A stretch of 35,416 nt of DNA, from contig CANQEE010000008.1 in the NCBI GenBank assembly GCA_947594595.1, forward strand, positions 1-35,416, in the 5' to 3' direction. The notes below the pieces were generated by a model, which saw only the letters and a program-made list of their open reading frames with translations, was not told where the DNA came from and made no database searches. This stretch comes from an uncultured Bacilli bacterium (GTDB lineage Bacteria > Bacillota_I > Bacilli_A > RF39 > UBA660). A program made the translations under genes and the position numbers. Shown in pieces: positions 15,564-25,949 of this stretch (the stretch's first letter is position 1; each line of letters begins with the position of its first letter).

Positions 15564-15896
15564 TTATTCTTCTTTTCCATAGACCATCTTTTCAAGTTGA
15601 GATAGTCGACGCAATATATCTACATTGGTTACTTCTCCCCCTTGATTTTCTTGGTTTTTAGCAATTTCCACATTCATTCTTGCATTTCTAAGTTCTTGTT
15701 TAAGATTCATATTTTCTTTTAAAAGCTCTGCTTTTTCCTGTTCCATTTGATCAACAATTTGAAAAAACTGTTCATAATCTCCAATCACAGTATCCAAAAA
15801 TTGATCTACTTCTTTTAAACGATATCCTCTTGTATCAATTTTAAACTCTTTCTCAAGAATTTCTTGTGGAGAAAGTGTAATTTTATTCTGGTACAT
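15564..15896 (-). CDS. gpsB: Cell-division/wall-synthesis adaptor GpsB
   Basis: A 110-residue DivIVA-family protein that docks PBPs and other wall enzymes at sites of growth and division. Residues 1-35 are the membrane-binding/PBP-binding head (TLSPQEILEKEF, GYRLKEVDQFLD). A coiled coil covers about 36-75, and a Gln/Gly-rich linker separates it from the short C-terminal helix VDILRRLSQLEKMVYG, a GpsB hallmark. Full DivIVA is much longer, which excludes it. GGTGAGAG precedes the ATG. The class A PBP encoded about 10 kb away contains a cytoplasmic basic N-terminus suited to GpsB binding; that link is inference from the family. Confidence 0.95.
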   Translation of the reverse strand: MYQNKITLSPQEILEKEFKIDTRGYRLKEVDQFLDTVIGDYEQFFQIVDQMEQEKAELLKENMNLKQELRNARMNVEIAKNQENQGGEVTNVDILRRLSQLEKMVYGKEE

Positions 15897-15944
15897 ATTC
15901 TCTCACCAATCCCTTTGTCCAAATTTATTTTACGAAAAATTGGA

Positions 15945-16067
15945 CTATTTGTCAATTGATTTGCTAGAAAGACAATCAAGTATTTTTCGCGTCTTTTCTT
16001 CAATTAAAATTTCTTTAATTTCTTCATGCATTTTATTCAATAAAAAAATTACTTCTTTTGTTTTCAT
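15945..16067 (-). CDS. Small ORF (40 aa) upstream of gpsB
   Basis: A short reading frame with a good AGGTGAT ribosome site seven bases from its ATG. The product is 40 residues, starts MKTKEVIFLLNKMHEEIKEI and ends SSKSIDK with a TAG stop. It is charged and would form one or two amphipathic helices, with one Cys and no membrane segment. I do not recognise it. It fills most of the gap between the unknown 506-aa gene and gpsB and is followed by gpsB after 48 bases, so it may be the first gene of a gpsB-rnpB transcript. The strong ribosome site and upstream promoter-like boxes favour a real gene, but length alone could be chance. Confidence 0.55.
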   Translation of the reverse strand: MKTKEVIFLLNKMHEEIKEILIEEKTRKILDCLSSKSIDK

Positions 16068-16083
16068 AGAATCACCTATCTAC

Positions 16084-16112
16084 AATGTAATAGATTTCAT
16101 TAGAATTTGCAA
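16084..16112 (-). promoter_or_regulatory. Candidate promoter for small ORF-gpsB-rnpB
   Basis: Read leftward: TTGCAA (16107-16112), a 17-base spacer, TACATT (16084-16089). The inverted repeat AGAATT-TGC-AATTCT (16102-16116) overlaps the -35 box. Box matches are modest (four of six each). Confidence 0.45.
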
Positions 16113-16148
16113 TTCTTTCGACAAAAGTAGCAATTTTTCGAAAAAGAA

Positions 16149-16189
16149 AAGAGTTGATCAAGAAACCAATATCAATCTCTTATTTTTTT
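16149..16189. terminator. Terminator after the 506-aa unknown gene
   Basis: AAGAGTTGAT (16149-16158) pairs with ATCAATCTCTT (16171-16181) with one bulged base and a 12-base loop. Leftward it is followed by TTTTCTTTTT, so it can end transcription of the gat operon; rightward a run of seven T follows. Confidence 0.72.
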
Positions 16190-17708
16190 AACGACTCCCT
16201 ATTTTTTTTTGAAGAGTTCCTTTAACTTCTAAAGACTTATCTGCTTGTTTAATTACATAAGAATAATCTGGAATTTTAAGAATAATTCCATCTTCCAATT
16301 CTACTTCTTTCGTATCTCCTGGCAGTAAATTGAATGCATTTTTTCGTAATGTTTCATCCTCTTCTTTTAAAATATTTAATTCTACTCGTCCTACAAATAG
16401 ATCAGCTCTTCTATCATCAAATACATTCTGAAATCTAGATAAAATAGATTCAAACATAGCATCTTGTGTGATACCATCTAAAGAAAGGAGTCTGATGTAG
16501 TCTTTTGCTATTTCAATAGTAGGAGCATTTTGTATATGCTTTAGAATATTCAAAGGAAACCTAGTTTGCTGAAAAATTGGAGTTTCAAAAAGTTTCACTC
16601 TTTCTTGAAGAATTTGTAAATCCTCCGTTTTTAGATAAGAAAGATACTCTTCTTGTAACTCTTTATCTTCTTGAAAGGAAGCATCCTCTATAAGTTTTCC
16701 TGTTAAGAAAGGATATCTTGCATCAAAAAGTTCCTGTTCTTGGTAAATCTTACTATTTTCATAGATATCTTTTATTAAAGATCTTTTCCAAATGGAAGTA
16801 CCTTCCAAAAAACTAGGAGAGCAAAGAATCTTCCATGTATTTTTTGCAAGTTGGGTATTTCCTCTTCCAGAAAAAACATCTTTTACAATTTCTACATCAT
16901 CCTCTTCCTTAATATTACAGAATTGATCTATTTCATTTAAAACATCTACATAATCTTTGTTCTGCTCTTTTATAAATGCTTCATTGAGAAAAGAAAAAGT
17001 ATCCATATTACATTTTCCAAAAAGAGAAAGAAGTTTCTTTCGATGATTACATGGAACTTTATTAAGAAAATAGCAATAAAACTCTTCTGCATAAACAATA
17101 GAATAAAACCCCGTTTGAATTTTAAAAGATCCTAGAAAAGTTTTCATATCTTTTAATTCCTCTAAAGAATAAGAAAGACTAAAAGAAAAAGAAAAGAAGT
17201 TTTTCAAAAAGCCATTCTTACATAATTCTGTTAAAATTTGGATTTGATCTTCTCCTAAATTTTTAATAGCATCTCTTAAAGGTGTTTTTTCTCTTTCTAT
17301 GAATTCATGATACATTGACACTGGAAAATTTTGAAGAATATTGGTATCTAAAAGAGGAAGGATTTTTGGATTTTTTTTCATCATGGAAAGTTCTATAGAA
17401 AGCTTTATGATACCTGCTTCATCATAACAAGGTGCTAAAAGAGAAGAATCCTTTTCTAAATCTAAATCTGGTATTTTTTTTAAAAGAGATTTTTTTTGAT
17501 AATATAGAGAAGAAGCGGCTTCTTTGTCTACTATATTGCAGTAAGTTGTTAAGTGACGAAATAAAAATCTCCTTTCTTTTTCTGTTCGAAGTTTTAAAAA
17601 ATCGAAATCAGAACGAATGAGTTTTCGAGCGATAGAATAATTACTAGAATACTTCTTTAATTCTTTTCTCATGCCCCTTTTTAAAAAATATTTATCTATT
17701 AAATTCAT
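16188..17708 (-). CDS. Unknown 506-aa protein at the end of the gat operon
   Basis: Not recognised. A soluble protein without signal peptide or membrane helix, mostly helical, with repeated short helix-turn units and a dispersed set of Cys residues. The start (MNLIDKYFLKRGMRKELKKY) is basic. The last ~70 residues look more beta-rich (KEVELEDGIILKIPDYSYV). The many Leu/Lys/Glu-rich segments could be an alpha-solenoid, but no clear repeat period is visible. It begins 9 bases after the gatB stop with AAGGGA as ribosome site, and a terminator follows its stop codon, so it is the last gene of the gat transcript. No functional link to transamidation is known from the sequence. Confidence 0.75.
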   Translation of the reverse strand: MNLIDKYFLKRGMRKELKKYSSNYSIARKLIRSDFDFLKLRTEKERRFLFRHLTTYCNIVDKEAASSLYYQKKSLLKKIPDLDLEKDSSLLAPCYDEAGIIKLSIELSMMKKNPKILPLLDTNILQNFPVSMYHEFIEREKTPLRDAIKNLGEDQIQILTELCKNGFLKNFFSFSFSLSYSLEELKDMKTFLGSFKIQTGFYSIVYAEEFYCYFLNKVPCNHRKKLLSLFGKCNMDTFSFLNEAFIKEQNKDYVDVLNEIDQFCNIKEEDDVEIVKDVFSGRGNTQLAKNTWKILCSPSFLEGTSIWKRSLIKDIYENSKIYQEQELFDARYPFLTGKLIEDASFQEDKELQEEYLSYLKTEDLQILQERVKLFETPIFQQTRFPLNILKHIQNAPTIEIAKDYIRLLSLDGITQDAMFESILSRFQNVFDDRRADLFVGRVELNILKEEDETLRKNAFNLLPGDTKEVELEDGIILKIPDYSYVIKQADKSLEVKGTLQKKIGSR

Positions 17709-17717
17709 AAAAATCCC

Positions 17718-19145
17718 TTACTGATTTTGTAACATTTCCTTCAATTTTTCATTAGCGATTTTTGGATTGATTGTCCCTTTTGCTTCTTTCATTACTTGTC
17801 CCATTAAATATTTTAAAGCACGATCTTTTCCCTGATGATAATCTTTTACACTCTCTTGATTTTGATCAAGAACTTTTTGAATCACTTCTTCTACAAAAGA
17901 AACATCTGTAATATTTTGAATATGATTTTCTTTCATAATAGTTTCAATAGAAGAGTCTTTTTCTAAAATCTCTTCCAAAATATCTTTCACATTTTTATTT
18001 GAGAGTTCTCCTACCTCTAATTTTTTTACTAAATCCAAGAATTTTTCATCGGTTAGTTTAGTCTTTTCTAGGGAAAGAAAATTTTTATTTAAATAAGAAG
18101 AGATATCTCCCAACAATAAGTTTGCTGCAATAACAAAGTTTAATGGAGTAGAAAGGAATCTATTAAGATAATCTGACAATGCTTTATTCGCAAGAATTTT
18201 TTCAATGCTAAGCTCCTTCATTCCTTTTTCTTGATATTGTCTTCTTCTTTCATCTGGAGTCATTGGAAGGAGGGAAATTGCTTTTGTGATTTGTTCTTGA
18301 GAAAGAGTAATCATTGGAATATCTGGTTCTGGAAAATATCGATAATCATTTCCTGTTTCCTTCATTCTCATTAAAATCGTATCTCCGATTTTATCATCAA
18401 ATCGTCTTGTCTCTTCTTTTAAGGTTTCTCCCTTTTCTAAAAGAGTTGTTTGTCTTTCAATTTCTTTTTCAATCGCAATTCCTACGTTATGAATCGATCC
18501 AATATTCTTAATTTCACACTTTGTTCCTAATGTCTTACTTCCGATCGGAGCAATCGAAACATTGGCATCACAACGCATACTTCCCTCTTCTATTTTACAA
18601 TCACTAATTTCTCCATAAAAGAAAGTTTCTCGCAACTTTTCAAGATATAAAACAGCTTCTTCTTTGGTATGCATGCAAGGCTTACTGACAATTTCAATTA
18701 AAGGAACCCCTGCTCGATTAAAATCTAAGAGACTTACTGTTCCTCGATGAGCACTTTTACAAGTATCTTCTTCTAAGTGCATCTCTTCAATTTCTATTTT
18801 TTTCAAACCTAAAGAAGTTTTAATTTCCAGATACCCTTCTCTTCCAATAGGTGTTCTATTTTGAGTAATTTGATAGTTTTTAGGATTATCAGGATAGAAA
18901 TAATTTTTTCGATCAAAGTGCATTTTCTTAGTTAGCTTACAATGAGTTAAATGAACGGCTCTAATTCCCTGATTGATTACTTCTTCATTGATCGTTGGAA
19001 GGGTTCCTGGATAACCTAAATCAACTACTGTACAAGAAGCATTGGCATTTTTTCCATATCCATTTTCACTAGAAGAAAAGAACTTACTTTTTGTTTTTAC
19101 CTCTACATGAACTTCAATTCCAATCGTTGCTTCGTACTTGGTCAT
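17718..19145 (-). CDS. gatB: Asp/Glu-tRNA amidotransferase subunit B
   Basis: A 475-residue subunit that binds misacylated Asp-tRNA(Asn) or Glu-tRNA(Gln) and activates it for amidation. It opens with YEATIGIEVHVEVKTKSK, the GatB signature, and contains HFDRKNYFYPDNPKNYQITQ-type sequence near residues 98-117, DFNRAGVPLIEIVSKP near 146 and RCDANVSI near 192. The helical tail and YqeY-like domain fill roughly residues 290-475 (LMGQVMKEAKG near the end). AGGAGG lies nine bases before the ATG, and the start overlaps the gatA stop by four bases. GatC, GatA and GatB are all present, so a complete GatCAB complex is encoded. Confidence 0.97.
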   Translation of the reverse strand: MTKYEATIGIEVHVEVKTKSKFFSSSENGYGKNANASCTVVDLGYPGTLPTINEEVINQGIRAVHLTHCKLTKKMHFDRKNYFYPDNPKNYQITQNRTPIGREGYLEIKTSLGLKKIEIEEMHLEEDTCKSAHRGTVSLLDFNRAGVPLIEIVSKPCMHTKEEAVLYLEKLRETFFYGEISDCKIEEGSMRCDANVSIAPIGSKTLGTKCEIKNIGSIHNVGIAIEKEIERQTTLLEKGETLKEETRRFDDKIGDTILMRMKETGNDYRYFPEPDIPMITLSQEQITKAISLLPMTPDERRRQYQEKGMKELSIEKILANKALSDYLNRFLSTPLNFVIAANLLLGDISSYLNKNFLSLEKTKLTDEKFLDLVKKLEVGELSNKNVKDILEEILEKDSSIETIMKENHIQNITDVSFVEEVIQKVLDQNQESVKDYHQGKDRALKYLMGQVMKEAKGTINPKIANEKLKEMLQNQ

Positions 19146-20593
19146 TGTCTTTTTCCTCCTTCTAAATCAAGATCTAGCATCTTTTCAAGAAAACTAGCCA
19201 ATTGATACATCTTTCCTTCTTGAAAAGGAGCTCCTATAATTTGCATTCCAATAGGAAGATTTTCTTTACTAAATCCTGCTGGAAGATTCATTGCAGGAAG
19301 TCCTGCCATATTCGCTGGAATAACTAAGATATCATCCATAAATCCCTTTAATGGATCATCAAGGCCTTGTCCTAAAGGATAAGCAGCTGTCGTTGTAGTA
19401 GGCGCAATTAACAAATCATAATCTTTAAAAGCAGCAAGAAAACTTGATCGCATATCATCCCTAATTGAAAGAGCCTTATCATAATATTTTTTTGCATTTT
19501 CTCCTGATAAAAGACTAGATCCCACCATAATTCTTCTTTTTACTTCCTCTCCAAACCCTTCTTTTCTGGTTTGTTCATAAAGAAAGTCTATATTTTTAGA
19601 ATCTTCTATTCGATAACCATACCGAATTCCATCAAATCTTGCTAAATTACTACTAGCTTCTGCCATAGCAAGAATTTGATAAAGTGGAACCGCTTGTTCT
19701 AAATATGAAACTTCCACCATTTCTACGGTATTTCCATGTTTCTTTAAAAGGTCAACCACATGATTAAAAACATCTCTTACTTCTTCACTTACTACTTCAC
19801 TTACTAAATAAGATGGAATTCCAATCTTTAAAGATTGAGTCTCTTTTCCAAGATAAGCTGTATAGTCTTCTACTTTTTTCTTGGAACTGGTTAAATCCTT
19901 TTCATCAAATCCTGCAATCACATTTAAAAGTACTGCATTTTCATACACAGTTCTAGTCATGGGTCCAATTTGATCAAGACTCGAAGCAAAAGCAACCAAA
20001 CCATAGCGAGAAACTCTTCCATAGGTTGGTTTCATTCCAACAAGACCTGTATAACTTGCAGGTTGACGAATAGATCCTCCTGTATCACTTCCGAGTGCAA
20101 AAGGAACCATCCTAGAAGCAACAGCACCTGCACTTCCTCCACTAGATCCTCCTGTGATATAGATAGGATTCCATGGGTTTTTAGGGGGACCAAAATAAGA
20201 GGTTTCACTGGTAGATCCCATAGCAAATTCATCCATATTTGTTTTTCCAACAATGATCATACCTGCTTTTAAAATTTTATCTATTACTGTTGCTTGATAA
20301 ATTGGTATAAAGTTTTCTAGCATTTTAGAAGCACAAGTAGTTCGAATTTGCTTTGTAATAATATTGTCTTTGATTACAATTGGAATTCCCCATAAGGGAC
20401 CCCCTACTTCTTCTTTGGAAAGTTCCTCTGCTCTTTGATAAGCTTCTTCTTTGGTAGCTGTAATGATACAATTTAAATCTTGACATGCATCCATTCTTTC
20501 AAAAACTTCATCCAAAAGCATTTTAGGTGTAAGTTCTTTTTTTAAGTATGCAACATGAATTTCATCAATGGTTAAATCTAAATACTTATTCAT
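19142..20593 (-). CDS. gatA: Asp/Glu-tRNA amidotransferase subunit A
   Basis: The glutaminase subunit, 483 residues, releasing ammonia from glutamine for GatB. The amidase-signature triad is intact when numbered from the chosen start: Lys75 (VIKDN), cis-Ser150 in TGGSSGGSAG and nucleophile Ser174 in GSDTGGSIRQP. The ATG at 20593 (MNKYLDL) is six bases after GGTGG. An in-frame TTG two codons earlier (20599) is less likely. The start overlaps the end of gatC and the stop overlaps gatB, so the three subunits are translationally coupled, as expected for a fixed-ratio complex. Confidence 0.97.
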   Translation of the reverse strand: MNKYLDLTIDEIHVAYLKKELTPKMLLDEVFERMDACQDLNCIITATKEEAYQRAEELSKEEVGGPLWGIPIVIKDNIITKQIRTTCASKMLENFIPIYQATVIDKILKAGMIIVGKTNMDEFAMGSTSETSYFGPPKNPWNPIYITGGSSGGSAGAVASRMVPFALGSDTGGSIRQPASYTGLVGMKPTYGRVSRYGLVAFASSLDQIGPMTRTVYENAVLLNVIAGFDEKDLTSSKKKVEDYTAYLGKETQSLKIGIPSYLVSEVVSEEVRDVFNHVVDLLKKHGNTVEMVEVSYLEQAVPLYQILAMAEASSNLARFDGIRYGYRIEDSKNIDFLYEQTRKEGFGEEVKRRIMVGSSLLSGENAKKYYDKALSIRDDMRSSFLAAFKDYDLLIAPTTTTAAYPLGQGLDDPLKGFMDDILVIPANMAGLPAMNLPAGFSKENLPIGMQIIGAPFQEGKMYQLASFLEKMLDLDLEGGKRQ

Positions 20594-20879
20594 TAACAAC
20601 CACCGGTACTTCTATAAATTTTCCATTTTTACGAGGAGCATTCAAAAGAACTTCTTCAAAAGAAAGCATAGGTCCTACCTCATCTTTTCTAAGAGAAGGC
20701 TCTTCATCAAATGGAGTAATCATCATATCATCATTATATCCTTTTATCTCATGGATTTGATCAATCATTTCATAAAGAGCACCAAGACGAACTTGATACT
20801 TTTCGATTTCTTCTTCTGAAATTGCAATACGTGCAAGATGTGCTACATGTTTTACTTCTTCTACACTTAATTTTTTCAT
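20586..20879 (-). CDS. gatC: Asp/Glu-tRNA amidotransferase subunit C
   Basis: A 97-residue belt-like subunit that stabilises the GatA-GatB interface. VKHVAHLARIAISEEEIEKY at about 9-28 is the family signature, and the rest (MMITPFDEEPSLRKDEV) matches the extended C-terminal half. An upstream in-frame ATG (20924) would add 15 residues. The start at 20879 is preferred because AAGGAGGAATTT precedes it at proper spacing and family members begin at this point. It is followed directly by gatA with overlapping codons. Confidence 0.95.
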   Translation of the reverse strand: MKKLSVEEVKHVAHLARIAISEEEIEKYQVRLGALYEMIDQIHEIKGYNDDMMITPFDEEPSLRKDEVGPMLSFEEVLLNAPRKNGKFIEVPVVVNE

Positions 20880-20929
20880 AAATTCCTCCTTTTTTATTGT
20901 ACCAAACAAAAAGAATCTTGCCAAAATTT

Positions 20930-21220
20930 TTAAGAATCTTTTTCTAATATTTTTTGTTGTACTATAGAAATATCTCTATGTTCTTTCAAATAAAATTGAA
21001 TCTTTTCTGCAAGCTCATAAGAGAGAAAGGAAAGTAACCTAGGATGTTCTAGAATGACTTGTTCATAATTAGAAAAACAAAGAGAACCAATTGTAATAAG
21101 AGTCTCCTCTAAATCACTTTCTTTTTTCTGTTTTAAGAAAGGATCATTTTGAAGAAGTTCTAAAAGATCCTTCTTTTTAAATTGAAATTTTTCATGCCAT
21201 GGTGAAATTTTATTTTTCAC
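20930..21220 (-). CDS. Unknown 96-aa protein preceding gatC (GTG start)
   Basis: A 96-residue soluble protein of unrecognised family. It is rich in Leu, Lys and Glu, with likely helices (KKKDLLELLQNDPFLKQKK, then YELAEKIQFYLKEHRD) and no membrane segment. The start is GTG at 21220, six bases after AGGGGGGAT, a strong ribosome site that decides it. It ends 50 bases before gatC, so it probably heads the gat transcript. TATGAT and GATAAT boxes lie in the 30 bases upstream of the ribosome site with a T-rich stretch before them, but no good -35 box is spaced correctly. No function can be assigned. Confidence 0.7.
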   Translation of the reverse strand: MKNKISPWHEKFQFKKKDLLELLQNDPFLKQKKESDLEETLITIGSLCFSNYEQVILEHPRLLSFLSYELAEKIQFYLKEHRDISIVQQKILEKDS

Positions 21221-21287
21221 GGTATCCCCCCTATGGCAATTATCCTATCATAGAAAAGAAAAAAAGAAAACAAAAAGTGACTGTTTG

Positions 21288-21314
21288 AAAGAAAAGAGAG
21301 CTCCTTTTCTTTTT
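21288..21314. terminator. Possible terminator downstream of the DUF362 gene
   Basis: AAAGAAAAGAGAG (21288-21300) faces CTCCTTTTCTTTTT (21301-21314), forming a stem with one mismatch or bulge centred on GAGCTC. The T-run is better on the plus strand, where no gene needs it. A weaker AT-rich hairpin (AAAAACAA/TTGTTTTT, 21333-21351) lies nearer the gene. Confidence 0.4.
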
Positions 21315-21361
21315 GTTTCATAAAAAATGCATAAAAACAAACATTGTTTTTACACATTGAT

Positions 21362-22264
21362 TTACTCTACTCCTTCATCATCTATACAGATGAGTTCATA
21401 TTCTCTTGTTCCAAGATGTAGAAGGCTTGCTGCTTCAACCGTATGAATGGCATGTTTTTCTCTCATTCTCTCTACCAAAGAGGCTTTTCCCTCATCTTGA
21501 GAAGCAAGAATTTGATCATAACAACACTGATCAAGAGCAACAGGATCAAGGCTTGCAAAAATACCAATATCTTTCATTTCAGGATCTTTTGGATTTGAAT
21601 CACAATCACAGTCAATAGAAAGATTGTTTGCAACGTTAATATAGGCAAGGTTTTCTTTACCAAAATATTCAATGACTGCTTTATCTGCTTCTGCCATACT
21701 TTCTAAAAAACCATCTTGATCTTGCACATGATTCCACATCTCATCTGGATCTTTTGTAATTCCTACAGAATGAATCCAAGCTTTTCCTTCTCTTGATGCA
21801 ACTCCAATGCTCATATTCTTAAGAGCTCCACCAAATCCACCCATAGCATGTCCTTTAAAATGAGACAAGAGTAGCATAGAGTTATAATGAGTTAGATGAC
21901 TTCCTACATAGTTGACCCCTTTTAAATGTGTTCCTCCTTCAAAATGAAGAGGAATTTGTCCTTCTTCGTCTAAAAGATCACAAGGAGCAATTTCATAAAA
22001 TCCATGATCTTTAATAGCTTGCCAATGACTTTCAGGATCAAATCTTTTCCCACGGTAAGCAGTACAACACTCTACAATCGTCCCATTTAATTGATGAACA
22101 AGTTTTTGAATGAGTTGAGGGTTTAAAAAATTATGCCCACCAGGTTCTCCTGTAGAAATTTTTACAGCAACTTTTTCTTGTAAGGTAATTCCTAACCTTT
22201 CATAAATTCTAACAAGTGCTTCTGCACTAATTTCTTTTGTAAAATAAACACGAGCTTTTTCCAT
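21362..22264 (-). CDS. DUF362-domain protein
   Basis: A 300-residue member of the DUF362 family (PF04015), marked by SHFKGHAMGGFGGALKNMSIG near residues 134-154. It also has VAVKISTGEPGGHNFLNP at 33-50 and a Cys-rich patch DCDCDSNPKDPE around 209-220. Many DUF362 proteins are fused to a ferredoxin domain; here there is none. Members often handle redox or cofactor chemistry, but the reaction is not established. It has no signal peptide and is cytoplasmic. It starts 22 bases after the adhesin stop codon (AAGGAGAAAAAT ribosome site), so the two genes are likely cotranscribed, though a functional link is unproven. Confidence 0.85.
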   Translation of the reverse strand: MEKARVYFTKEISAEALVRIYERLGITLQEKVAVKISTGEPGGHNFLNPQLIQKLVHQLNGTIVECCTAYRGKRFDPESHWQAIKDHGFYEIAPCDLLDEEGQIPLHFEGGTHLKGVNYVGSHLTHYNSMLLLSHFKGHAMGGFGGALKNMSIGVASREGKAWIHSVGITKDPDEMWNHVQDQDGFLESMAEADKAVIEYFGKENLAYINVANNLSIDCDCDSNPKDPEMKDIGIFASLDPVALDQCCYDQILASQDEGKASLVERMREKHAIHTVEAASLLHLGTREYELICIDDEGVE

Positions 22265-22286
22265 TTTATTTTTCTCCTTTTTTATT

Positions 22287-25103
22287 TTATATTTTTGGTT
22301 TTCTAAATGCTAGATAGACAAAGCCTCCTCCTAAAATCAGAATAAGAGCTCCTACCAAATAAATATATATTGGAATAGTAGCATTTGTATTAGGAACAGG
22401 AATTTCTGGAACATTTTTCATCTCTACTTCTATTTTTTCTCCTGCAACTACTTGAAACTCTATTTTAGAAGAAAAACGTACATATCCATCTGGAGCCTTT
22501 TCTTCCTGTAAAAAGTAAGTTCCTTTTGGAAGAGCAATCACATAAGGTTCATCTGTTGAAGTAAAACGAGCAATTTCTTTTTCATCTTCATCTAAAAGAA
22601 CTAAAGTCGCTCCCTCTATCTTTTTTCCAGTTGTTGCATCTATCTTTATGATTTGAGCTGTTCCATAAGGTTCATTCTTCATCTCTACTGGGGTGGTTTT
22701 TCCTGCTGTTATTGTAAAGGAAACTGTTTCTACATTTTTTACGTATCCTATAGGAGCAAGAATTTCTGTTAAGGTATATTCTCCATCTGGAAGAGAGAAT
22801 ACATGAGCTTCTTCTGTAGAAATAAAGCGTTCTACTTCTTCTCCTTTGCTATTTTTTATAAGAAGAGTGGCTCCTTTCACTTCCTTTCCTGTTACCAAAT
22901 CTGTCTTTCGAATGCTTGCCTTTCCCTGCTCTTGATTTTCCATTTCAATTTGTTTTGTTTTTCCTGCTTCAATTTGAACAGAAATAGTTTCCTGATTGAG
23001 CTGATATCCATCAGGTGCTTTCTTTTCTTTTAGAGTATAAGTTCCCTTTGGAAGAGAGACTTTATGTGCTTCTTTATTTGTTGTCCACTCATCTACTTGA
23101 TGTTGCTCCTGATCAAGAAGAAGTAAAGTGGCTCCTTCTAATGGTTGTCTAGTTGTAGCATCTATTTTTATGATTTGAGCTGTTCCATAAGGTTCATTCT
23201 TCATCTCTACTGGAGTGGTTTTTCCTGCTGCTACTGTAAAGGAAACTGCTGTTGTGTTTTTGACATATCCATCAGGTGCGATTTCTTCTTTCAAAGTATA
23301 CTCTCCATCTGGAAGAGCATCAATCTCATGAGGTGTTTTAGTAGAAACCCATCGAGCAATTTCTCTTCCTTCTTGATTGGTAATCACAAGGGTGGCTCCT
23401 TCAACTTCACTTCCTGTTACCAAATCTGTCTTTCGAATGATTATTTTTCCAAGCTCTTGATTTTCCATTTCAATTTGTTTTGTTTGTCCTGCTTCAATTT
23501 GAACAGAAATAGTTTCCTGATTGAGCTGATATCCATCAGGAGCCTTCTTTTCTTTTAGAGTATAAGTTCCCTTTGGAAGAGAGACTCTATGTGCTTCTTT
23601 AGTTGTTGTCCACTCATCTACTTGATGCTGCTCCTGATCAAGAAGAAGTAAGGTGGCTCCTTCTAAAGGTTGTCTAGTTGTAGCATCTACTTTTAAAATA
23701 CTGGCTATTCCATAGGGCTCATTTTGCATCTCTACTTCCTCTACTTCACCAGACTCTACAGAACAAGTAAGAGTTTGCGTATTTAAAATATACCCATCAG
23801 GTGCAGAGATTTCTGTTAAAGTATAAGTTCCTACTTGAATAGGATCAATGACATATGGTTCAGTAGTAGAAGTCCATCTGGCAACTTCTTTTCCTGCCGC
23901 ATCTTTCAAAAGCAAAACGGCACCTTTTACTGCTTCATTTGTAACTGAATTTTTCTTACTAATTCGAAGACTTCCCATTGGATCATCAATGACCAAATGA
24001 ACCTCTTTATCTAAAGGAGTTAACTGCATTACTCCTACTAAAGCTCTTTGAACTTCACTACTTTCAGGCAAATAATAGTAAGCATCTTTGGAGGAAAAAG
24101 TTCCTTTTACAGTAACATTTAAAGAAAGTTTTCCTGCACTTCGAATTGTTTCAATAGGCACTCGAATTTTAAATTTAGTTCCTGGATCTACTTCGCTGCC
24201 AGATAAAATTTGTTCTCCATTTTCCTTATAAAAGGTAACTTGATCATTAGAAGTTGTTAATACATAATGTAAAAAATTGCTTCCACTTGTTTGCACTGAA
24301 ATCAAATTACTTTCCATAAATTGTTTATCTTCTGTAAGAGAAAAATGTACTTGAGAAGGATCTAGTGAAACTTCATAATTTCTATCTTCCTGATAATTCA
24401 TAGCAGCAGTTAAAATTTGCTCCATCTCGCTCCAATATTCACTTTCTCTAATCTTCTTCTTTTCTTCTTTTAATAAAGAATTCTTCCAATAATGTGTAAT
24501 TTCATCAACTGGATCCAAGCAAGTATCTTGGATTGCTGTAGGATGATTAACAAGATCACATTGATCAGCTGCATCATCTTGATACCCTGCTTTTCTATCT
24601 TGATAATACCAAATCAAAATTTGGGAAATATAGCGTTTTTCATCCTCACTTTTTCCTGCTAAAAATTGATCGTTATTGGGATAAATTTGAGAGAGCAAAT
24701 AAGCCATTCCCTTATCTTCAATAGGTTGATCTTGTTTGGTATATTTTTTTCCACGAATTTGAACAAGCCAACGATCCAGACAATAAATATCAAATTCATT
24801 TCCACCACTTTCACTATCATTATCAACAGTATAAAAACGTTTAATTAAAGAAATACCATCAATAAATTCTGATCGAATGGGTGCCATAACTCCTGCTGCA
24901 TAAGAAGTATCTTCTGTTCTTGAATAAAGAATTTTAGGAAGAGATTCCACAGGAGAAAGAGCAGCGTAACTACTTCTTACATATTGAATAATTTGTGCAC
25001 CTGTTATCATTATAAGAATTAAAAAAAGGCCCAACAACATACTTTTAACGGCTTTGTCTCTTCTTAAAGCATCCCTTTTTTTTCGCTTTTTCATTATCTT
25101 CAT
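22287..25103 (-). CDS. Surface adhesin: predicted thioester domain, six Cna-B repeats, sortase-like signal
   Basis: A 938-residue exported protein. Residues 1-20 are very basic and 21-48 hydrophobic (signal or anchor). The next ~300 residues hold FDIYCLDRW with Cys108 and the SQILIWYYQD segment with Gln161. These resemble the Cys and TQxxIW halves of a thioester domain, which binds host or cell-surface amines covalently. From about residue 377 six Cna-B (SpaA-type) domains of ~88 residues follow. Each keeps the isopeptide trio: an early Lys (KTD/KID), a Glu in TLKEKKAPDGY-like strands and an Asn in MENQ/MKNEP. The C-terminus is VPNTN (903-907), a hydrophobic helix and RKPKI, a sortase-sorting-like signal that is not LPXTG. 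AAGGTGA precedes the ATG. The thioester call is from motif only. Confidence 0.88.
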   Translation of the reverse strand: MKIMKKRKKRDALRRDKAVKSMLLGLFLILIMITGAQIIQYVRSSYAALSPVESLPKILYSRTEDTSYAAGVMAPIRSEFIDGISLIKRFYTVDNDSESGGNEFDIYCLDRWLVQIRGKKYTKQDQPIEDKGMAYLLSQIYPNNDQFLAGKSEDEKRYISQILIWYYQDRKAGYQDDAADQCDLVNHPTAIQDTCLDPVDEITHYWKNSLLKEEKKKIRESEYWSEMEQILTAAMNYQEDRNYEVSLDPSQVHFSLTEDKQFMESNLISVQTSGSNFLHYVLTTSNDQVTFYKENGEQILSGSEVDPGTKFKIRVPIETIRSAGKLSLNVTVKGTFSSKDAYYYLPESSEVQRALVGVMQLTPLDKEVHLVIDDPMGSLRISKKNSVTNEAVKGAVLLLKDAAGKEVARWTSTTEPYVIDPIQVGTYTLTEISAPDGYILNTQTLTCSVESGEVEEVEMQNEPYGIASILKVDATTRQPLEGATLLLLDQEQHQVDEWTTTKEAHRVSLPKGTYTLKEKKAPDGYQLNQETISVQIEAGQTKQIEMENQELGKIIIRKTDLVTGSEVEGATLVITNQEGREIARWVSTKTPHEIDALPDGEYTLKEEIAPDGYVKNTTAVSFTVAAGKTTPVEMKNEPYGTAQIIKIDATTRQPLEGATLLLLDQEQHQVDEWTTNKEAHKVSLPKGTYTLKEKKAPDGYQLNQETISVQIEAGKTKQIEMENQEQGKASIRKTDLVTGKEVKGATLLIKNSKGEEVERFISTEEAHVFSLPDGEYTLTEILAPIGYVKNVETVSFTITAGKTTPVEMKNEPYGTAQIIKIDATTGKKIEGATLVLLDEDEKEIARFTSTDEPYVIALPKGTYFLQEEKAPDGYVRFSSKIEFQVVAGEKIEVEMKNVPEIPVPNTNATIPIYIYLVGALILILGGGFVYLAFRKPKI
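22931..23163. repeat. Tandem DNA repeat inside the adhesin gene, copy 1
   Basis: Near-identical to 23456-23688 (about 9 differences in ~233 bases), 525 bases apart. Both encode Cna-B domains of the KID/KVDATTRQPLEG type; the unit that duplicated is a two-domain module of 175 codons. Confidence 0.85.
23456..23688. repeat. Tandem DNA repeat inside the adhesin gene, copy 2
   Basis: Partner of 22931-23163. Low divergence at silent sites indicates a recent duplication, gene conversion, or length variation by recombination. Confidence 0.85.
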
Positions 25104-25241: not shown

Positions 25242-25949
25242 ATGGAACTAAGAAAAGAAAGTGCTTCCTTCTTAGAAGAGCAAGAAGAACAAGAAGTTCT
25301 TGCACTTTTTCATAAAACGTTAGAAAAAAAAGAAAATCAAATTTTTCTTGTGGATACAATTTCAAAACAAGAAAGAAAAATACAAGATCTTTCTCAACAA
25401 AATCTTCCTACTGAAATAAAAATTGAAACAGAAGATTTGTTATTCTTTTTAAATAAAGATCCTATCGAAAAAAAATTTCATTTGACTCGAATTTTCTTCT
25501 CAAAAAAAGATGGAATCTATGAAAGTTCTTTGCACATACAAAAAAAGCATTTCTTTTCCATGCAATTCCTTGGTGAAACAGATATAAGTCAAGAACCTAT
25601 TTTTTATATCTTTGATCTTTCAAAAAAACAAATCAACTTTTCCATTACAAATTCTGAAGAATTACATAATTACTTCTTTGCTATTTATACGAAAGAAGAA
25701 GATGCTTGGGGAACTAAAAGTGCAGCGATGCGTTTTATTTTAAAAAAGGCCTGGCAAAAAGCACCTACTATCATGCAATATTTAGAAGAGAAAGAACCCA
25801 TTCTTCAAACAGCAAGAGAACAATTACTCCCACATCTTTTTGAAGAAAAACAAGAAAAACCCATAAAATTTCAGGTTCTTTCTGGAGGATTGGATCCAAC
25901 CTCATCAAAATTAAAAGAAAGTGGAAAAAATTCTCATAAAAAAGGATAA
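25242..25949 (+). CDS. Unknown 235-aa protein upstream of recU
   Basis: I do not recognise this soluble, Lys/Glu-rich protein. Residues 1-60 look helical. The middle (about 60-140) is beta-rich with alternating hydrophobics (KFHLTRIFFSKKDGIYESSLHIQ). A Trp-containing segment (DAWGTKSAAMRFILKKAWQ near 155-175) is the best candidate for a conserved core. The C-terminal ~30 residues are basic and low in complexity, possibly disordered. AGGTGATTCA precedes the ATG. The gene is read in the same direction as recU, 74 bases upstream, so the three may be one transcript. No membrane segment and no catalytic motif is evident. Confidence 0.7.
   Translation: MELRKESASFLEEQEEQEVLALFHKTLEKKENQIFLVDTISKQERKIQDLSQQNLPTEIKIETEDLLFFLNKDPIEKKFHLTRIFFSKKDGIYESSLHIQKKHFFSMQFLGETDISQEPIFYIFDLSKKQINFSITNSEELHNYFFAIYTKEEDAWGTKSAAMRFILKKAWQKAPTIMQYLEEKEPILQTAREQLLPHLFEEKQEKPIKFQVLSGGLDPTSSKLKESGKNSHKKG

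Follow-up and report, generated by a model that had tools for sequence, protein, structure and literature searches.

The gene considered here is a single intact reading frame on the minus strand (22287-25103) with an ATG start, coding for a protein of 938 residues; an earlier note on this DNA had proposed that it encodes a large adhesin. It lies in the window, the whole stretch of 35416 bases that was analyzed, which is one complete contig (C8) of a 1.04 Mb genome assembled in 70 contigs and 97% complete. The close relatives found by sequence are genomes named "uncultured Bacilli bacterium" in sets labeled Lapin (French, rabbit), and from this label the source habitat is likely the rabbit gut. 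Table 1 lists the features of the gene product, which is probably a rod-like surface protein with a predicted covalent grip on its target.

Table 1. Features of the adhesin gene product in window coordinates
Feature	Position	Strand	Basis
Signal peptide (residues 1-48)	24960..25103	-	Translation: basic N-terminus, hydrophobic core, SYAA-L cleavage-like site
Class II thioester domain (TED), residues about 60-372	23988..24926	-	Pfam TED, AlphaFold2, Foldseek
Cys108, thioester Cys, motif YCLD	24780..24782	-	C in 68/68 ungapped rows
Gln161, SQILIW helix motif (TQxx-hydrophobic-W type), not the bond Gln	24621..24623	-	PMC4450167, PMC6194298
Gln352, predicted thioester Gln, motif VQRAL	24048..24050	-	69/69 invariant; spacing to Lys383
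Cna-B domain 1, triad K383/E431/N461	23712..23975	-	Pfam and triad reading
Cna-B domain 2, triad K471/E518/N548	23448..23711	-	Pfam and triad reading
Cna-B domain 3, triad K558/E606/N636	23190..23447	-	Pfam and triad reading
Cna-B domain 4, triad K646/E693/N723	22926..23189	-	Pfam and triad reading
Cna-B domain 5, triad K733/E780/N810	22668..22925	-	Pfam and triad reading
Cna-B domain 6, triad K820/E867/N897	22404..22667	-	Pfam and triad reading
Sorting motif VPNTN, residues 903-907	22383..22397	-	Instance of VP[D/N]T-x
Transmembrane segment and RKPKI tail, residues 910-938	22290..22376	-	Translation

In the window genome the adhesin gene adjoins the gatCAB cluster. The genes that flank the segment formed by gatCAB, a DUF362 gene and the adhesin gene are direct neighbors in three relatives, so this segment is placed differently here; judging from gene order, the stretch 15564-25103, in which a DivIVA-like gene, the gatCAB cluster, the DUF362 gene and the adhesin gene stand between the two blocks adjacent in those relatives, may be a relocated or inserted segment. 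Downstream of gatB is a 506-residue reading frame (16188-17708) without a Pfam match, which is weakly conserved (29%) and occupies the same place in relatives. A further gene without a Pfam match (25242-25949, 235 residues) is only 23-29% identical between species, while its neighbors RecU and PBP1 are 64-74% identical, indicating a fast-evolving gene.

The protein has the layout of a sortase-anchored surface protein, with a signal peptide whose SYAA is invariant in nine homologues and, at the other end, VPNTN followed by a hydrophobic segment and a basic RKPKI tail. The Pfam anchor model gives this tail 14.1 bits, below its cut-off of 20; the genome's anchored proteins were sampled through weak matches to anchor models. 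Pfam recognizes six SpaA/Cna-B stretches (E 1.6e-99), and the Lys/Glu/Asn triad is complete in all six domains with a Lys-Asn spacing of 77-78, in agreement with the six isopeptide-capable Cna-B domains originally proposed. At the DNA level, domain 4 is 93% identical to domain 2 and domain 5 is 76% identical to domain 3, indicating that a two-domain Cna-B unit was duplicated.

The N-terminal region matches the Pfam TED profile over residues 106-172 with 26.7 bits (E 7.8e-6); this exceeds the cut-off of 22, and thus the match is more than chance, although several orthologues score below that cut-off. An AlphaFold2 model of residues 45-464, calculated with eight homologues, reached a pLDDT of 80.3 and a pTM of 0.63 and shows residues 325-373 as a long beta hairpin. 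The top PDB matches by Foldseek are 6fwv (BaTIE, E 5.8e-20) and 6fwy (the TED of EfmTIE86, E 9.6e-10), both class II TEDs, and these matches together with the 325-373 hairpin indicate the beta-sandwich insert that distinguishes class II domains, between helix 3 and strand P. The whole-chain TM-score to 6fwv is 0.43, a moderate value that would be expected if the angles between domains differ, so that this match rests on its E-value and on the order of the elements. With the TED region as a single query sequence, phmmer recovered no relative from the PDB, and a profile search returned only Cna-B relatives and a weak match to 5dcq, so that it took a comparison of folds to place the domain. A viral fold library gave generic beta-sandwich matches only, and viral contigs yielded no homologue. 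The proposal of a thioester adhesin on an isopeptide stalk is supported by the Pfam TED profile, the class II fold match and conservation.

In known TEDs the thioester Cys stands in a [YFL]C-hydrophobic-hydrophilic motif (PMC6194298), and its partner Gln belongs to a weak motif close to the domain end, hydrophobic-Q-polar-hydrophobic-hydrophobic. A second Gln, in a TQxx-hydrophobic-W helix, makes a hydrogen bond to the Cys, but the thioester can form without it (PMC4450167, PMC6194298). The adhesin has YCLD at residues 107-110, which fits the Cys motif, VQRAL at residues 351-355, which fits the Gln motif, and SQILIW, the helix motif with Ser for Thr. The earlier note had instead likened the contexts of Cys108 and Gln161 to the two halves of a thioester domain and had placed the VPNTN tail between class A and class B motifs. 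The corresponding reading, a Cys108-Gln161 thioester and a hybrid tail recognized by a class B-like sortase, we consider highly improbable. The choice of Cys108 stands, since all 68 ungapped rows of the bacterial-family TED alignment have Cys there. Gln161 is invariant as well, and in solved TEDs the helix Gln lies beside the bond; however, it only hydrogen-bonds the Cys in those structures, and an invariant downstream Gln, Gln352, exists. Conservation of the helix motif proves nothing in the 69-TED alignment, which was selected for Cys108 and for that motif; it was not selected for Gln352, which is invariant in nine genus homologues and in all 69 TEDs of the wider bacterial family. Furthermore, 31 residues separate Gln352 from the first isopeptide Lys (Lys383), the same spacing as from Gln266 to Lys297 in BaTIE. 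Gln352, rather than Gln161, is thus the predicted bond glutamine on sequence grounds, and Cys108 and Gln352 would form the thioester. The distance between Cys108 and Gln161, proposed earlier as a check, would mislead, because the helix Gln sits beside the bond in known structures.

BaTIE and EfmTIE86 resemble the adhesin in their N-terminal class II TED, Cna-B isopeptide stalk and sortase tail. They differ in the separation of the bond Cys and Gln, which is 195 and 204 in the two known proteins versus 244 here, and in the tail, which is LPATG in BaTIE and VP[D/N]T-x in the adhesin and its relatives. The adhesin also has an extra, poorly modeled loop (residues 179-206), the worst-modeled part of the TED, which contains Cys182 and Cys195 (window 24519-24560); both are conserved among the genus homologues and perhaps form a disulfide. 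SfbI/FbaB shares covalent capture by an internal thioester and binds fibrinogen covalently, but has the class I TED fold, whereas that of the adhesin is class II.

To place the VPNTN tail, we compared it with those of TED proteins across the bacterial family, in which 137 of 193 genomes have a TED. Among 64 complete TED proteins, 55 end in a VP[D/N]T tail. Only 12 of the 55 have Gly as the next residue, the others having Ala, Ser, Lys, Asn, Glu, Tyr, His, Thr, Arg or Gln (entropy at this fifth position, 3.0 bits). VPNTN itself occurs in TED proteins that adjoin their own sortases (loci L102, L162 and L177); this, together with the variable fifth residue, indicates that VPNTN is one case of VP[D/N]T-x. 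The view of VPNTN as intermediate between class A and class B motifs does not survive this comparison, since the tails of relatives read VPDTA, VPNTA, VPDTG, VPDTS and VPDTY. VPNTN does resemble the class B motif NPQTN, and class B sortases are present in the genome; on the other hand, close relatives with VPDTA, VPDTG, VPDTS and VPDTY stand beside class C/D-like sortases, and the class B sortase on contig C1 adjoins a protein ending in NPNTSD, the tail type that accompanies the genome's class B sortases, unlike VPNTN. Thus, where a class B substrate would have an NPxTN-type tail near a class B sortase, the TED proteins have VP[D/N]T-x tails with class C/D-like sortases. The Asn that the adhesin shares with NPQTN substrates at the fifth position is a coincidence: the first residue is Val, other sortases are paired with the family, and the fifth residue is not conserved among relatives.

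Tails of another type, in which [N/G]P[D/N]T[A/S]D is followed by a transmembrane segment, were seen at L031:3630-4328, L031:4343-5212, L034:208-1440 and L035:4426-5400. One protein of this type lies head-to-head with a class B sortase, and it thus seems that the genome has two separate anchoring systems. Reading frames of 24,000 residues next to some TEDs (L184, L185; G069, G149) are masked runs of N, not giant proteins.

The window contains no sortase gene, as had been noted before; the six sortases of the genome lie on contigs C54, C12, C53, C1, C4 and C39. The first three of these contigs each carry a further TED-type protein directly followed by a sortase gene, an arrangement that is typical of the family, where the sortase gene is downstream on the same strand in 56 of 64 TED loci and mostly overlaps by some 3-90 bases. 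The window protein is closest to the C53 paralogue (44-47% identity in the TED region), a shorter protein with a VPDTA tail whose gene overlaps that of its sortase. In two sister species a long form (855-859 residues; 53% and 47% identical) is encoded directly upstream of a C53-type pair. Within its own genome, the window gene counts as an orphan paralogue of the TED-sortase pair located elsewhere. The sorting signals of the window protein and the C53 paralogue share 24 of 45 residues, which makes the C53 sortase the leading candidate for anchoring the window protein in trans, and it probably does so.

The same two species bear on the possibility that the adhesin is a pilus tip or pilin which, with the shorter paralogue and a class C-like sortase, makes a polymer like that of Cpa in group A streptococcus. 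Besides this gene order, in which the long form immediately precedes the short TED protein with its sortase, the best scores of TED-paired sortases against the class C model, the occurrence of Cna-B domains in pilins and a weak similarity to pilus ancillary protein 1 are consistent with a pilus. We consider it unlikely, since those sortases fall far below the class C cut-off (58-66 versus 160 bits, NCBIfam), reading of the sequences revealed no lid motif of the DPF/DPW type and no pilin lysine motif, and most loci consist of a single substrate and a single sortase.

The cognate sortase had been suspected of being unusual because of the VPNTN motif; the TED-paired enzymes are indeed unusual, but for another reason. 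In this genome, the three give their highest or nearly highest scores with class C and class D models (NCBIfam NF033745, NF033746, NF058671), far below the cut-offs, and share with these classes the conserved His and Cys; they differ in their VP[D/N]T-x substrates and in a Gln past the catalytic Cys where Arg is expected, e.g., TLITCTNYDDTTQTVYIF. Their fold family is clear by Pfam, yet the His/Cys/Arg triad of the sortase superfamily is replaced by His/Cys/Gln. The remaining sortases comprise two class B enzymes, which score slightly above and slightly below the cut-off, respectively, and a divergent class B-like one; the two clear class B enzymes keep the Arg (TLSTCQNNQGKRIVVHAK). Among 62 TED-adjacent sortases of the family, 56 were scored as Gln and one unscored enzyme reads Gln by eye, with 3 Arg, 1 His and 1 unclear. 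The Gln lies at Cys+7 to Cys+9 (L030:3490-4140, L028:4702-5349, L029:2357-2926 and about 55 more loci), and His138, Cys200 and Gln208, the last at Cys+8, are invariant in 15 diverse TED-paired sortases that are down to 23% identical. This spacing is the same as that of the Arg in Clostridioides difficile SrtB, where Arg234 is Cys226+8 (PMC4371152). The AlphaFold2 sortase model has a pLDDT of 53, and the Gln position is taken from the sequence alignment.

The first sortase set was collected with a profile seeded with Gln-type sequences, and sets based on Pfam are the fairer control; in these, class C and other sortase types have Arg. In a search of 392 genomes from other Bacillota families, the nearest relatives reached no more than 78 bits, compared with at least 100 for the Gln-type matches within the family, and every readable one carries Arg. 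Literature searches, conducted largely outside subscription journals, returned no report of natural Arg-to-Gln sortases. The catalytic Arg is described as essential (PMC4371152), and the genome has Arg-bearing class B sortases, so one might suppose that the Gln-type enzymes are degenerate or inactive and that the adhesins are anchored by the Arg-type class B enzymes. This appears rather improbable, because a decaying enzyme would not retain catalytic invariance and substrate pairing at once, whereas here His, Cys and Gln are invariant down to 23% identity and the pairing with substrates is kept in dozens of genera. The Gln-type sortases are accordingly predicted, from conservation, to be active.

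In class A sortases, fifth-position selectivity is governed by the loop between strands beta7 and beta8, which connects the catalytic Cys with the Arg (PMC8361268). The changed residue at the end of this loop, combined with the free fifth position of the VP[D/N]T-x tails, is suggestive of a causal link, but Arg-type sortases with fifth-position freedom are also known (PMC8361268), and the Gln need not be responsible. We lean, somewhat beyond even odds, towards the view that this group of gut Bacilli has dedicated His-Cys-Gln sortases for thioester adhesins, which would read only VP[D/N]T and leave the residue after the scissile bond free. Sortases of this Arg-to-Gln type, with no constraint on the fifth motif position, look like a new variant. 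The adhesin adds one more member to a known kind, and of the two the sortases are the more novel.

Our main reading, to which we give a probability of about 0.7, is that the window protein is a wall-anchored TIE-type fibrillar adhesin anchored by the C53-type His-Cys-Gln sortase. We propose that it is secreted by the Sec route and that its six Cna-B domains lock themselves by Lys-Asn isopeptide bonds into a stiff stalk, at the distal end of which the class II TED would form the internal Cys108-Gln352 thioester. This thioester may then trap an amine on its target, which could be host, mucus or bacterial, giving a covalent bond. A sortase from another part of the genome would cut the VPNTN tail. 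The likeliest one is the C53 enzyme beside the shorter paralogue, a member of a lineage-specific His-Cys-Gln group whose substrates share VP[D/N]T and not the fifth residue, and this Gln-type enzyme would fix the adhesin to the wall.

Covalent-type adhesins have been described mainly from pathogens and conjugative plasmids. The present survey, with a TED in 137 of the 193 genomes sampled, indicates that they are also common among uncultured gut commensals with reduced genomes. The sortases paired with them provide a test of whether the catalytic Arg is truly required. If the Gln-type enzymes are active and the fifth position is free, the textbook active site of sortases would change, and such enzymes would be useful for protein ligation.
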